This document shows, piece by piece, positions 49,101 to 56,330 of a DNA stretch of 59,803 bases (within the stretch, counting starts at the first letter, position 1; every line of letters begins with the position of its first letter). The stretch is taken from IMG/VR virus record IMGVR_UViG_3300008261_000020, positions 1-59,803 of that record; one strand, 5' to 3'. The stretch comes from a virus. The notes beneath the pieces are model-generated. The model searched no databases. It was given only the letters and a program-made list of their open reading frames with translations, and had not been told where the DNA came from. A program made the position numbers and the translations under genes.

Positions 49101-49339
49101 AGCCTTGTGATGTATATAGGTGTTTTCTCGCCAACATAGGCTCCAACAATATTGTACCCATAATAGTCAATCGCCTCTTCCTCACTCATGTCCCTGCTAA
49201 GCACCTTGATGATTATCTCAGAGTCGTATACTACCCTGCCATCTTTTTCTTCAACACCAATTATCGCCTCGTCCATCCCATCAACCAATAAGGCATCGGG
49301 ATACATCTCAGCTATCTTATCGACTTTACTTTGCGTCAT
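49097..49339 (-). CDS. small conserved phage protein (MYPDALLVDGMDEAI...)
   Basis: 80 residues from the ATG at 49339, which overlaps the end of the GroEL gene in another frame. EMYPDALLVDGMDEAIIGVE, VVYDSEIIIKVLSRDMSEEE and NIVGAYVGEKTPIYI form a pattern widespread in phages and unnamed as far as I know. An upstream start would add unrelated residues encoded inside GroEL. Confidence 0.7.
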   Translation of the reverse strand: MTQSKVDKIAEMYPDALLVDGMDEAIIGVEEKDGRVVYDSEIIIKVLSRDMSEEEAIDYYGYNIVGAYVGEKTPIYITRL

Positions 49340-50927
49340 AGGTTCTTGCCATTGTGATGATAGCGTTAGTTGACAATATTGTCGTAGCAACACTGACTGC
49401 ATTCTGCAAGGCAGAACGAGTGACCTTAAGCGGGTCAACGACACCCATCTTGATTAGGTCCCCAAACTTACCTGTTTTTAAATTATATCCATCACCATCG
49501 TTACTTAATGAGCCATACACCTCACCATACTGAACCCCTGCGTTCTCAAGTATCTGAAGTAATGGTGCACGTAGTGCATTGGAGACTATTCTAACAGCAG
49601 CCTTCTTCTCATCAGACCAACTCTCATCAATTGCAATAAGACTCTCGCTGTATAGTGCCTTACCCGCTCCCGGCAGTATACCTTCCTCTAATGCTGCCCT
49701 TACCGCACATACCGCATCGTCAATCCTATCATACAACTCTTTTTGCTCAAGGTCAGTATTGCCACCCGCAAAGATGACACCAATCCCTCCTGTCAAGGAG
49801 GCAATACGCTCAAGCAAGAAATCTTTGTCAGCCTTCCTCTTGGCAGCCTTGTGTGCGTCCCATAGTTGGGTGACTCGTTCCTGAATTTTGACAGAGTCAA
49901 TCTTCAGGTCGGACTTGAGGATAATGGTCTTATCTTTACTCACTATCACCTTAGCAGCGTGACCTAAGTCAGCGTAAGTAATGTGAGATAAATCGTCTCC
50001 GGTCTTTTCTGAGAAGTAAGTGGCTCCAACGGAGACTGCAAGGTCTTGCATTAACTCGTGTTGCTTATACCCAAAACTTGGCGGTGGTATCGCACATATC
50101 TTCAAGTTGCCTTTCATCACATTCGCAGCCAATGTGTTTACCACATTAACGTGACAAGGAGCAACTATCAAAAGCTTCTTGCCTTCGGTAATGATTGGCT
50201 TCAGTATGTTCTCAATGTTTAGGATGTTCCCTATCTCAATATCAGCTACAAGAATCATAGTGTCCTCAAAGACACACTCATCTTTCTTTTGGTCGTTGAT
50301 AAATAGCGGACTCAAATACCCCCTGTCAATTTTCAATCCCATAGTTGTCTCGGCATAAGTCTCCGAAGTCTGAGACTTCTCTACCGTTACTATACCATTC
50401 TTCCCCACCTCTTTGTATACCTCGGCAATAATCTTTCCCAACTCTTTGTCATTGTTCGCTGATATAGTAGCCACGTCAGTTAAGGTGCTGCCTGAGACCT
50501 TCTTCGAACGTCTCCGGAGGTTCTCCACCACCTTGCCACTTATCTCCACCATGTTGCGTAGCACCTCGGTACGATTATGAGTTGGAAGAAGATGCTCAAC
50601 ACCACCCATCACCAATGCCTCTGTGAGCACAATAGCGGTCGTTGTACCGTCTCCGGCAGCAGTAGCTGTACGGTCGGCTGCCTCCTTCATCATCTTGACA
50701 GAAAGGTTCTCTACGGGGTCTAACAAGTCAACCGCTTTCGCAACAGTTACACCATCCTTGGTGACAGTGATACCATGAGTATGTGTTGGTGATTCTATAA
50801 CTACCGTGTTTCCATTGGGACCCAATGTACTCTTCACAGCATTTGCAATAGCATTAATTCCTTTGATTAGTTTAGACCTACCTTCCTCTCCGAAACGTAA
50901 GTCCTTAGGTGAATATCCGATTTCCAT
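49326..50927 (-). CDS. groEL: chaperonin GroEL homologue
   Basis: 533 residues from the ATG at 50927 (MEIGYSPKDLRFGEEGRSKL). Nucleotide-binding motifs are intact: LGPNGNTVVIE (about 35) and AGDGTTTAIVLTEAL (about 85). Apical residues (GYLSPLFIND, about 199) and the C-terminal equatorial part (ATTILSTNAIITMA) are present. The usual GGM-rich tail is missing and the protein ends ARTYDAK. It probably folds capsid or tail proteins with the GroES gene downstream. A near-palindrome variant lies at 50260. A GTG 21 nt upstream is a possible alternative start. Confidence 0.9.
   Translation of the reverse strand: MEIGYSPKDLRFGEEGRSKLIKGINAIANAVKSTLGPNGNTVVIESPTHTHGITVTKDGVTVAKAVDLLDPVENLSVKMMKEAADRTATAAGDGTTTAIVLTEALVMGGVEHLLPTHNRTEVLRNMVEISGKVVENLRRRSKKVSGSTLTDVATISANNDKELGKIIAEVYKEVGKNGIVTVEKSQTSETYAETTMGLKIDRGYLSPLFINDQKKDECVFEDTMILVADIEIGNILNIENILKPIITEGKKLLIVAPCHVNVVNTLAANVMKGNLKICAIPPPSFGYKQHELMQDLAVSVGATYFSEKTGDDLSHITYADLGHAAKVIVSKDKTIILKSDLKIDSVKIQERVTQLWDAHKAAKRKADKDFLLERIASLTGGIGVIFAGGNTDLEQKELYDRIDDAVCAVRAALEEGILPGAGKALYSESLIAIDESWSDEKKAAVRIVSNALRAPLLQILENAGVQYGEVYGSLSNDGDGYNLKTGKFGDLIKMGVVDPLKVTRSALQNAVSVATTILSTNAIITMARTYDAK
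50260..50275 (+). repeat. 16-bp near-palindrome variant, copy 7
   Basis: GTGTCCTCAAAGACAC in the GroEL gene: one base differs from the CA-centred form. The minus-strand sense reads CVFEDTM. Confidence 0.6.
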
Positions 50928-50950
50928 TTTAGTTAATTTAGTATGCACAA

Positions 50951-52663: not shown

Positions 52664-52714
52664 TCCGTCCGAGAGTGATTACTCTCGCTGATGAGTCCAA
52701 TAGGACGAAACGGA
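52664..52714 (+). ncRNA. hammerhead ribozyme-like RNA 1 (type III)
   Basis: Stem III: TCCGT (52664-52668) with ACGGA (52710-52714), including the A15.1-U16.1 pair. Cleavage nucleotide C17 = 52669 (GUC). Stem I: CGAGAGT/ACTCTCG with loop GATT (52670-52687). Core CTGATGA (52688-52694). Stem II: GTCC-AATA-GGAC (52695-52706). GAAA at 52707-52710. All conserved core residues are present. Predicted cut is between 52669 and 52670, 65 nt upstream of the amidoligase ATG, leaving the ribozyme in its leader. Confidence 0.85.
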
Positions 52715-52734: not shown

Positions 52735-53622
52735 ATGGAATTTAAAATGCATGGAGCAGGACCAAACAGATGGAATGACATCGTTTCACGTGGTGTGGTT
52801 CAAGGATACCACGACAAGCCTCACCCGATTGATATTTCGGGCGGAGCGAAAGCCTCAGACATTGCAAACCTCAAGAAAGCACAAAGGGGTAACCTTATTG
52901 AGTCTTTCGGTGACTATCGTTCAAGGTTTACCATCGGGTTTGAGGTGGAGAAAAACTCCCTTCATCGTGGAGCGGTGAGAGAGTACGAGCTACTTTGTGG
53001 GTTTGAGCGTGATGGGTCTTGCGGTTACGAAGCGGTTACCCACGTGTTACCCCTTGTTCCTAACTCTCAGTGGAGAACTGCCGTATTCGATATGATGTTC
53101 AAGGCTGAGAAAATTATTTCAGACAATTATAGCCCTTCAAATTCTCAGTGCGGTGGTCACTCAAACATCGGGGTTGAGGGGTTGACGGGTGATGAACTGA
53201 GGGTCCTTATTCGCTCTTACTCGGGCATTGTTATGGCACTCTTTCGCAATAGGTTGAAAAACTCTTTCTGCCGTCACAATTTACGTATGCAGGGGGGCAC
53301 TGAGACGGGCATTTATAACGGGTGGCACTCAAAGTATCAGATGTGTTTGGTAAAGAGCAACATCGTTGAATTTAGGGTGGTGGCTAAGTTTGAATCTGTT
53401 AAGCAGATGATGAGAAGGTACGAATTGTTCTATGAATTGGTGGACTATTCGTTGAACGTGAAGGGGTCGCATAGTGCCTTCCTTAAGCGTATCACCCCCA
53501 TCATCACCTCGATGTACAACGGGGACACTGACAAGGTGAACAAGGTATTAGGGTACGCTAAGCACTTTCAAAAGTTCATCAACGACGGGTCAATCCATCC
53601 CGACATCCGACAATATCTTTAG
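52735..53622 (+). CDS. amidoligase-like enzyme (COOH-NH2 ligase family)
   Basis: 295 residues. FTIGFEVEKN (about 66), FERDGSCGYEAVTHVLPL (about 90-107), CGGHSNIGVEGL (about 139) and SNIVEFRVVAKF (about 208) match the phage-type amidoligase (glutamine synthetase/ATP-grasp-like) pattern in which acidic and His residues bind ATP and magnesium and an Arg in EFR is catalytic. Such enzymes join amino groups to carboxylates, and their genes often neighbour class II glutamine amidotransferase and GGCT genes, as here. The likely target is a peptide, possibly in the cell wall. A longer reading would run through hammerhead 1 and is rejected. Confidence 0.75.
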   Translation: MEFKMHGAGPNRWNDIVSRGVVQGYHDKPHPIDISGGAKASDIANLKKAQRGNLIESFGDYRSRFTIGFEVEKNSLHRGAVREYELLCGFERDGSCGYEAVTHVLPLVPNSQWRTAVFDMMFKAEKIISDNYSPSNSQCGGHSNIGVEGLTGDELRVLIRSYSGIVMALFRNRLKNSFCRHNLRMQGGTETGIYNGWHSKYQMCLVKSNIVEFRVVAKFESVKQMMRRYELFYELVDYSLNVKGSHSAFLKRITPIITSMYNGDTDKVNKVLGYAKHFQKFINDGSIHPDIRQYL

Positions 53623-53649
53623 AGTGCGAAGGGGGTGTCCTTCGGGTGC

Positions 53650-53665
53650 GTGTCTTTAAAGACAC
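53650..53665 (+). repeat. 16-bp palindrome (TTTAAA centre), copy 10
   Basis: GTGTCTTTAAAGACAC between the amidoligase stop and hammerhead 2. GGG and CCC flanks at a few nt distance could extend an RNA hairpin. Confidence 0.8.
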
Positions 53666-53681
53666 CGCCCCGACACTCCCC

Positions 53682-53730
53682 CCGTCTCAGCGTGTGTACG
53701 CTGACTGATGAGCTCAAAAGAGCGAAACGG
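53682..53730 (+). ncRNA. hammerhead ribozyme-like RNA 2 (type III)
   Basis: Stem III: CCGT (53682-53685) with ACGG (53727-53730). C17 = 53686 (GUC). Stem I: TCAGCGT/ACGCTGA with loop GTGT (53687-53704). Core CTGATGA (53705-53711). Stem II: GCTC-AAAA-GAGC (53712-53723). GAAA at 53724-53727. Stems I and II differ in sequence from hammerhead 1 but keep pairing, i.e. covariation. Predicted cut 53686/53687. Confidence 0.85.
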
Positions 53731-53737
53731 AAATAGC

Positions 53738-53750
53738 CACGCGAAGCGTG
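53738..53750 (+). other. small hairpin after hammerhead 2
   Basis: CACGC-GAA-GCGTG. Stable GNA-type triloop hairpin between hammerhead 2 and the next ATG at 53790; could stabilise the cleaved leader. Confidence 0.4.
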
Positions 53751-53789
53751 TCTATCCCCCATCGGAATCACACTTTAAACCAAACCACT

Positions 53790-53876
53790 ATGTTGTTAGC
53801 AATCTTTCTCTTGTCTGTTATCGTATCATTTTTTTTAACCAACGAAATCTTACCTAAAAAAAGCAAACTACTATGA
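53790..53876 (+). CDS. 28-residue single-pass membrane peptide
   Basis: LLAIFLLSVIVSFFLTNEIL then a short basic end. The ATG follows an AAACCAAACCACT leader. Its TGA overlaps the ATG of the next gene (ATGA), supporting coupled translation. Might pair with the lipoprotein encoded next. Confidence 0.5.
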   Translation: MLLAIFLLSVIVSFFLTNEILPKKSKLL

Positions 53877-54028
53877 AACAATCAAATTCACTGAACGTCC
53901 TTTACTTAGTCATCATCCTTTGTATGTTCATCTTTGGGCTCACCTTGACCTCTTGCGGTACGCAAGGGTACGGGTGCAAGGGGAACCAATCTTGGAACAC
54001 TATGGTAAAGCGAATCAACCGAGGTTAA
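53873..54028 (+). CDS. small lipoprotein
   Basis: 51 residues. A hydrophobic signal peptide (LYLVIILCMFIFGLTL) ends in LTSC, a lipobox with Cys28 as the lipidation site, then YGCKGNQSWNTMVKRINRG. The GCKGxxSWxxMVKRINR ending resembles small Bacteroidota lipoproteins I recall from host genomes. Could be an outer-membrane lysis or superinfection factor. Its stop TAA lies in stem I of hammerhead 3. Confidence 0.6.
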   Translation: MKQSNSLNVLYLVIILCMFIFGLTLTSCGTQGYGCKGNQSWNTMVKRINRG

Positions 54029-54077
54029 CTGACGAGTCTTGAGTAGACGAATCGGGGGCATTGCCCCCGACTTAACC
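54023..54077 (+). ncRNA. hammerhead ribozyme-like RNA 3 (type I, variant)
   Basis: Stem I: GGTTAA (54023-54028) with TTAACC (54072-54077). Core CTGACGA (54029-54035; N7 = C is allowed). Stem II: GTCT-TGAGT-AGAC (54036-54048). GAA at 54049-54051. Stem III: T + CGGGGGC-ATT-GCCCCCG + A (54052-54070). C17 = 54071. The normal A15.1-U16.1 pair is U-A here, so the cleavage triplet is GAC and activity may be reduced. The predicted cut leaves 19 nt before the ATG at 54091. Confidence 0.7.
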
Positions 54078-54090
54078 AAACCAAATTACA

Positions 54091-54288
54091 ATGACGCTAA
54101 AAAAATCGTACGCTTTTGACTATGACAAATCACTTGTTGAGTTCTTGAATCAGAAGGGAATCAAGACCATCACCGGTGACGCTGACATCACGCTGATTGA
54201 ACTTGAGGTATTGGGCGGGTACAACGATACCCCGTTCATTGACCTCATCCTTGAGTTCAGTGCGTGGCTGAGGCACAATCAAGGTTAA
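54091..54288 (+). CDS. small hypothetical protein between two hammerheads
   Basis: 65 residues. LKKSYAFDYDKSLVEFLNQK, then KTITGDADITLIELEVLGGY and FIDLILEFSAWLRHNQG. A small alpha/beta fold, unrecognised. Its ATG follows hammerhead 3 by 13 nt and its stop TAA lies in stem I of hammerhead 4. Confidence 0.6.
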   Translation: MTLKKSYAFDYDKSLVEFLNQKGIKTITGDADITLIELEVLGGYNDTPFIDLILEFSAWLRHNQG

Positions 54289-54334
54289 CTGATGAGTCTT
54301 GAATAGACGAATCCCCCTTCGGGGGGACTTAACC
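54283..54334 (+). ncRNA. hammerhead ribozyme-like RNA 4 (type I, variant)
   Basis: Stem I: GGTTAA (54283-54288) with TTAACC (54329-54334). Core CTGATGA (54289-54295). Stem II: GTCT-TGAAT-AGAC (54296-54308). GAA at 54309-54311. Stem III: T + CCCCC-TTCG-GGGGG + A (54312-54327). C17 = 54328. Stem III is entirely different in sequence from hammerhead 3 yet pairs perfectly, and the U15.1-A16.1 swap is repeated. The predicted cut leaves 19 nt before the ATG at 54348. Confidence 0.7.
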
Positions 54335-55707: not shown

Positions 55708-55720
55708 TGATTAGGTTTAC

Positions 55721-55744
55721 CTCCGAGCGTTTCCACGCTTGGAG
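55721..55744 (+). other. 10-bp hairpin upstream of tRNA-like RNA 1
   Basis: CTCCGAGCGT-TTCC-ACGCTTGGAG pairs over 10 bp (one G-U). TTTAC flanks it on both sides. It precedes the tRNA-like structure by 4 nt and follows the amidotransferase stop, so it may be a terminator-like or protective hairpin; no U-tract follows. Confidence 0.6.
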
Positions 55745-55748
55745 ATTT

Positions 55749-55802
55749 ACACGGGGTGCAGAATGGTCTGTCAAGTGAAGGGTTCGATTCCCTCCCCGTG
55801 TG
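55749..55802 (+). ncRNA. tRNA-like RNA 1, lacking an anticodon arm
   Basis: An 8-bp acceptor-like stem: ACACGGGG (55749-55756) with CCCCGTGT (55794-55801). A D-arm-like hairpin GCAG-AATGGT-CTGT (55758-55771) contains the GG expected to contact the T loop. A 7-nt linker replaces the anticodon arm. T-arm AGGG-TTCGATT-CCCT (55779-55793) has a typical T loop. Acceptor plus T stem total 12 bp, as in tRNA. Discriminator G55802; no CCA encoded. Only 19 nt separate it from the next ATG. Could be processed by RNase P or RNase Z. Confidence 0.65.
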
Positions 55803-55821
55803 CTCATCAAATTCAAATCAA

Positions 55822-56052
55822 ATGTCAAAAGCAAATGTTCTAACAATTCTCGTTGCATTATTCCCATCTTATGCTTCATTGTATTGCGACCAAGTTTCAT
55901 CAGGAATTTTATTGGTACTAAGTACTATAATTTTTGGTGTGGTAACGGGTGCTAATGAAGGAGAAGAAAAAATGAAAGACAAGATTCAAATGGGATGGAT
56001 ACTCCATATTGTAGGGGTGTTCATTGTCATCGGTGTAAAAAGTATTCAGTAA
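55822..56052 (+). CDS. small membrane protein (76 aa)
   Basis: Two hydrophobic segments: ANVLTILVALFPSYASLY and the broad SGILLVLSTIIFGVVTGA, then an acidic/basic loop and a third WILHIVGVFIVIGV. It follows tRNA-like RNA 1 with an AAATTCAAATCAA leader. Function unknown. Confidence 0.6.
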   Translation: MSKANVLTILVALFPSYASLYCDQVSSGILLVLSTIIFGVVTGANEGEEKMKDKIQMGWILHIVGVFIVIGVKSIQ

Positions 56053-56287: not shown

Positions 56288-56330
56288 GACTGCGATGGTC
56301 TCAGTTCGGGTTCGACTCCCGATGCAGTCC
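56288..56330 (+). ncRNA. tRNA-like RNA 2, minimal (acceptor stem plus T-arm)
   Basis: Seven-bp acceptor-like stem: GACTGCG (56288-56294) with TGCAGTC (56323-56329, last pair G-U). Five-bp T stem TCGGG/CCCGA with loop TTCGACT (56306-56322). An 11-nt linker (56295-56305) starting ATGGTCT replaces the D and anticodon arms; tRNA-like RNA 1 has the same ATGGTCT. The 7+5 bp stack and T loop are exactly those of a tRNA minihelix. Discriminator C56330; 18 nt to the next ATG. Confidence 0.65.

Follow-up and report, generated by a model that had tools for sequence, protein, structure and literature searches.

The window, by which is meant the whole of the virus record IMGVR_UViG_3300008261_000020 (59,803 bases), carries terminase, portal, GroEL and recombination genes, with the phage-encoded GroEL at 49326-50948 on the minus strand (PHROG 5725, E 3e-130). 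At 52735-53622 lies a gene for a protein of 295 aa, which matched no Pfam or PHROG family and is followed by the element considered here (HH2), which the initial annotation took for a type III hammerhead ribozyme. Another type III element (HH1) stands 20 nt upstream of the same gene, at a distance of 1017 bp from HH2, and type I hammerheads and tRNA-like elements are found further downstream (Table 1). The gene order around the HH2 region is common to the window and MW202828, which in the 18.9-kb stretch examined has GTGTCGTTAACGACAC palindromes in place of the GTGTCTTYRAAGACAC palindromes of the window and no hammerhead. A near-match search with the HH1 region recovered no named phage record, and no genome contig that might point to a host was found with the upstream gene. 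The A-rich leaders, which are devoid of Shine-Dalgarno sequences, suggest a Bacteroidota host.

Table 1. Coordinates of the elements at and around the HH2 junction
Feature	Position	Strand	Basis and remarks
HH1, type III hammerhead	52664..52714	+	Rfam 47.9 bits; predicted cleavage 52669/52670; abuts GTGTCTTCAAAGACAC hairpin
TAG stop of the upstream 295-aa gene (52735-53622)	53620..53622	+	ORF listing, sequence
Strong upstream hairpin with GTGTCTTTAAAGACAC palindrome (53650-53665)	53631..53680	+	Folding; palindrome family D3; ends 6 nt before the predicted cut
HH2, type III hammerhead ribozyme	53682..53730	+	Rfam RF00008 40.7 bits, geometric scan, orthologous covariation; predicted cleavage 53686/53687
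Downstream hairpin AUAG-c-CACGC-gaa-GCGUG-u-CUAU	53733..53755	+	Folding, orthologue sequences
First downstream ORF, 28 aa (candidate)	53790..53876	+	Read from sequence, without homology support
Second small downstream ORF, 51 aa	53873..54028		Overlaps the stop of the 28-aa ORF
Type I hammerhead, swapped U15.1-A16.1	54023..54077	+	Geometric scan; predicted cut 54071/54072
Second type I hammerhead, U15.1-A16.1	54283..54334	+	Geometric scan; 260 bp past the first
tRNA-like element with longer insert between acceptor stem and T arm	about 55748..55802	+	Sequence, folding
Mini tRNA-like element (7-bp acceptor stem, AUGGU, T arm)	56288..56330	+	Model R1 48.5 bits (copy in training set), folding

Read from its 5' end, HH2 is made up of one strand of stem III (CCGU, 53682-53685), C17 (53686), stem I (UCAGCGU, 53687-53693, with ACGCUGA, 53698-53704) around the loop GUGU, the core segment CUGAUGA (53705-53711), stem II (GCUC, 53712-53715, with GAGC, 53720-53723) around the loop AAAA, the core segment GAA (53724-53726) and the other strand of stem III (ACGG, 53727-53730). 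It thus has three helices that are open at stem III, with 7/7 pairs of stem I and 4/4 pairs of stem II perfect and 4 pairs in stem III. The invariant type III core (C3 U4 G5 A6 N7 G8 A9, G12 A13 A14, H17) is complete, and the A15.1-U16.1 pair is present (U53685-A53727), as it is in 152/152 type III matches of the scanner. The coordinates and architecture given in the initial annotation are exact, and the cleavage point that it named, between 53686 and 53687, is the one predicted from the intact core.

Against RF00008 (Hammerhead_3) the stretch 53679-53733 scores 40.7 bits (E 3.3e-6 for 9.8 kb and 4227 families). This is less than the curated cut-off (48.5 bits), a limit set conservatively for annotation and not by biochemistry. 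A default Rfam scan at the gathering cut-off returns zero matches because both HH1 (47.9 bits) and HH2 fall under 48.5 bits; in the E-value mode both type III copies are recovered. A phage-specific model gives HH2 74 bits, with HH2 itself in the training set, and the model R2, built only from HH2 orthologues with HH1 left out of training, gives HH1 74.1 bits. HH2 resembles the members of RF00008 in its CUGAUGA/GAA core, A15.1-U16.1 pair, C17, open stem III and short-looped stems I and II; it differs from the typical ones in its lower score, short stem III, 4-bp stem II with an AAAA loop and small loop I. A strict geometric scan of the window found 4 hammerheads (two type III and two type I), none of them on the minus strand, as against 3 in total over 100 Markov shuffles; a chance origin of the matches was rejected on the strength of shuffles.

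To compare true orthologues, an alignment of the gene upstream of HH2 (295 aa) with 13 relatives was made, and 80 viral contigs were fetched by this gene alone, blind to the hammerhead; these include the window's own genome (L124) and a few other near-identical contigs. With pairing ignored, the core motif CTGANG(A/T)-N7-17-GAAA occurs within 200 nt past the stop in 64/80 loci, as against 159/3687 control windows (4.3%) from the same loci. Strict pairing leaves 59 hammerheads at the HH2 junction, 51 of them distinct. Among the 47 distinct orthologous copies that were aligned, both-sided, compensatory changes are seen in 12 of the 16 pairs, the compensatory cells number 204, where shuffles have 60, and covariation scores 0.723, compared with 0.240 in shuffles and at most 0.13 with the partner slid; 96.8% of the cells are paired, a percentage inflated by the selection of this set for pairing. 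Because the aligned set was picked in this way, 64/80 is the figure without pairing bias. The closest orthologues (L127, L128) keep stem I and have two stem II pairs changed compensatorily (GCUC/GAGC to GUCC/GGAC), and across the alignment the loops are strongly conserved in sequence (GUGU/GAGU-type in loop I, AAAA-type in loop II). Certain hammerheads at this junction are variant: A9 is replaced by U in L163, stem II is very short in L188 and L196, and in L194 and L201 extra bases seem to be inserted after A9, ahead of stem II.

The initial annotation had argued for selection on RNA structure from HH1 and HH2 themselves, as two elements with different stems in the same relative location before a small gene. 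Stems I and II do differ between the two, and those of HH2 are perfectly paired; however, because the two sit at different gene junctions, they are not orthologues, and their comparison is no more than suggestive of covariation. Likewise, HH2 does precede small ORFs, of 28 and 51 aa, but what follows HH1 is the 295-aa gene. The selection itself holds in the true orthologues, and the sequence evidence supports 53682-53730 on the plus strand as a canonical type III hammerhead whose structure is selected.

The usual order at such junctions is stop codon, hairpin, hammerhead, A-rich leader and start codon, the last lying about 20 nt past the hammerhead. In a pattern scan of viral contigs, 116 of 119 distinct type III copies lie within 125 nt past an ORF stop, a distance that is no more than 59 nt for 115 of these, and an ATG is found 15-30 nt downstream of most of the 119. 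At the HH2 junction, 50 of the 51 distinct orthologous copies are preceded by a hairpin of at least 6 bp, which in 36/51 ends 5-6 nt before the predicted cleavage site; the hairpin of the window was overlooked by a simple hairpin finder because of its bulges. Downstream of HH2, the hairpin 53733-53755 shows a compensatory change in L127 and L128. The upstream hairpin frequently carries the palindrome GTGTCTTYRAAGACAC, which has six sites in the window (51743, 52642, 53648, 54563, 56064 and 59394), where it lies at gene junctions, and which in the relatives occurs alone, upstream of type III hammerheads, in stem III of a type I hammerhead, in a twister-P3 hairpin or in a tRNA-like element (L156). 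An intrinsic terminator was considered for the palindrome upstream of HH2 and rejected: the letters after the hairpin are CCCGUC, and without a U run behind it the hairpin does not qualify as a standard terminator. A terminator scan near HH2 returned only a sub-hairpin within the palindrome stem, at 53635.

The two type I copies of the window are near-identical to each other, and a pattern scan for both recovered them only in the same genome, as L122 (99.99% identical). The first has the stop codon of the preceding ORF inside its stem I, and its predicted cut lies 20 nt before the ATG at 54091. Both carry U15.1-A16.1; in the scanned loci the remaining 25 type I copies all have A-U instead. A natural hammerhead variant with U15.1-A16.1 cleaves less efficiently (PMC3088659), and the paired two-base flip in both window copies is expected to slow, rather than abolish, cleavage.

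At both junctions the hammerhead is exchanged for other elements. At the HH1 junction, a type III hammerhead is found in L127, L128 and L146, a type I hammerhead with the same palindrome hairpin as its stem III in L126, and a twister-P3 ribozyme in L156 (3856-3933, 61.8 bits against a cut-off of 39.9), again with the palindrome in its hairpin. Seven relatives (L158, L161, L168, L177, L180, L186 and L190) have tRNA-like elements there, and the others have the hairpin alone or neither, the bare hairpin being the state of most phages of the group. At the HH2 junction, a tRNA-like element stands in place of the hammerhead in 7-8 of the 80 contigs. Further elements are seen at the HH2 junction of individual contigs. 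In L155 (after 4930) and L184 (after 4900) there is a conserved element consisting of CAGAAACGG, a short spacer and GATTTGGTGGTAGAAAC, which a search found in just these two contigs and which is perhaps another cutting element. L192 (after 4993) and L195 (after 4996) have a candidate H-type pseudoknot in place of the hammerhead, GUGG-AA-GGUACGA-CCAC-GUUAU-UCGUGCC, in which the two differ by a G-U to A-U change. DUF805b RNA motifs (RF02914) score above cut-off in L187 (924-956 and 4881-4913) and L192 (3169-3203), both of which have no hammerhead at the HH2 junction.

The tRNA-like elements are about 43 nt long, with a 7-bp acceptor stem, a near-invariant AUGG(U) at the place of the D-loop and a T arm with the loop UUCGANU; they have no D stem and no anticodon arm, and fall below detection by ARAGORN and the Rfam cut-offs. 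A covariance model from 20 of them recovers 28 convincing copies in 85 sources, and the stems show covariation, with 93 compensatory cells (29 in shuffles) in a set selected for pairing. Where a stop codon is assignable they lie 6-31 nt past it, with one exception at 88 nt, and they precede an ATG by 18-49 nt; a hairpin ends within 4 nt of the acceptor stem in 12/25 distinct copies, compared with 15% of control windows. In the window, the copy at 56288-56330 has a hairpin ending at its 5' edge and a start codon 18 nt later, and is conserved in L084 and L126; the longer one follows a strong hairpin and precedes the ATG of an ORF at 55822-56052 (folding z -4.16 for the stretch 55715-55806). Such elements are also present in L180, L167, L177, L190 and others, with as many as four in a single locus, and they replace hammerheads at orthologous junctions. 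RNase P is known to cut structured sites within polycistronic mRNAs (PMC10731613), and by analogy cutting at these elements is plausible.

With a probability of about 0.8, HH2 can be seen as an active canonical type III hammerhead that provides an intercistronic cut site in the early operon of a tailed phage of roughly 60 kb, with a host that is probably a member of the Bacteroidota. Upon transcription of the region, the RNA would fold and break itself between 53686 and 53687. The upstream message, that of the 295-aa gene, would then end in a stable hairpin and about 6 nt with a 2',3'-cyclic phosphate, and the downstream message with the small genes would have a 5'-OH at its start, on stem I, and run on through stem II, the further hairpin and the leader to the start codon. 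Hairpin-capped 3' ends and shielded 5' ends would in this way arise without a U-tract terminator, and the stabilities of neighbouring genes' messages would be uncoupled. The same outcome, a hairpin ending the upstream message, would follow whether the cut here were made by a type III or a type I hammerhead or by RNase P, and because these would share one result HH2 may be read as a self-cutting punctuation mark. The present support comes from the structure, the selection on its pairing, the orthologous position, the spacing of the hairpin and the replacement by elements for which RNA cutting is known or expected; from these we infer cleavage in the cell, an effect on mRNA stability and a benefit to the phage. 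Against this stand the stem III of HH2, with only 4 bp, and the competing folds: in context, the full hammerhead fold has a probability of 0.002-0.02 for HH2 and 0.16-0.38 for HH1, with competing structures favoured, in nearest-neighbour models that ignore contacts between loops I and II. Cutting at a given junction does not seem to be essential, because most phages have a bare hairpin at the HH1 junction and MW202828 has no hammerhead in its 18.9-kb stretch. The wider proposal, that HH2 is one instance of a modular cut site, at which a conserved early-operon junction hairpin docks exchangeable, unrelated cutters (a hammerhead of type III or type I, a twister, or a tRNA mimic of 43 nt that host RNase P and/or RNase Z would cut) and is left at the new 3' end, we favour by a small measure over its negation.

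Type III hammerheads are also able to ligate, and the bracketing of one gene by two of them at similar spacing in the window, L127, L128 and L146 could be taken to mean that HH1 and HH2 excise the 295-aa message, which would then be ligated into a circle like those of retrozymes and viroid-like RNAs. This is improbable: by strict scan those four, the window (L124) included, are the only ones among the 80 loci with hammerheads on both sides, the common state being a single hammerhead after the gene, and the gene in between is an ordinary conserved phage gene. No RNA ligase was found among the 19 window proteins scanned against PHROGs, which also counts against circularization. A retrozyme or viroid-like unit, repeated and flanked by near-identical hammerheads so that a circle results, was rejected, because stems I and II are not the same in HH1 as in HH2 and the first copy is missing from most relatives.

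A regulated switch, with a ligand, an ion or the phage cycle controlling cleavage and hence the expression of the small genes, is unlikely, if somewhat less so; HH2 does lie in a leader with competing folds, and other phage hammerheads have been proposed to be regulated (PMC3088659), but its loops are only about 4 nt long and conserved in sequence, therefore leaving no space for a sensor domain, and its replacement by constitutive cutters and tRNA-like elements points to selection on cutting as such. The small unconserved ORFs downstream of HH2, together with the gene order that MW202828 keeps with no hammerhead in the stretch examined, might instead speak for hitch-hiking with small mobile genes and inheritance of HH2 with no benefit to the phage. 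This is the least probable of the alternatives, given that the element is kept at its junction in 64/80 divergent phages despite changing stems and downstream genes, and that compensatory changes maintain the fold.

Several hammerheads per operon were reported in phages and prophages by Perreault et al. 2011, who proposed the processing of long transcripts to gene-length mRNAs and found three hammerhead arrays to cleave themselves in vitro; a halovirus mRNA 5' end also maps within 3 nt of a hammerhead cleavage site (PMC3088659). The window is like those clusters in having several hammerheads that flank genes on one strand, but here the junction is orthologous in tens of phages, the hairpin keeps a set distance of 5-6 nt from the predicted cut, and other cutting elements take the hammerhead's place. 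Twister-P3 (RF03154) and other ribozymes occur near hammerhead-associated phage genes (PMC4604425). Twister-P3 would share with HH2 self-cleavage at phage gene junctions; it has an unrelated fold, and a single example is seen here (L156). A parallel might also be struck with mitochondria, in which tRNA punctuation divides the transcripts. As there, and as in the RNase P cuts of mRNAs (PMC10731613), structured intergenic elements would serve as points of transcript division; in contrast to mitochondrial punctuation, HH2 would be enzyme-independent, and the tRNA-like elements of the sister junctions are without D stem and anticodon arm. In the literature, the function of hammerheads in bacteria and their viruses has been treated as an open matter (PMC6155905). 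Transcript processing by phage hammerheads is thus a proposal known since 2011 (PMC3088659), and what looks new is the junction-level conservation, the hairpin docking and the tRNA-like exchange; the literature searched, which under-represents subscription journals, has no report of junction-level conservation, fixed hairpin spacing or tRNA-like exchange.

Hairpin-hammerhead cassettes of this kind might find use as terminator-free insulators in multi-gene constructs. With one ribozyme tied to a defined junction and natural replacements at hand, the transcript-processing idea becomes directly testable, as it predicts an identical 3' end whichever element occupies the junction. If RNase P or RNase Z does cut the tRNA-like replacements, tRNA punctuation would have a prokaryotic counterpart in phages.
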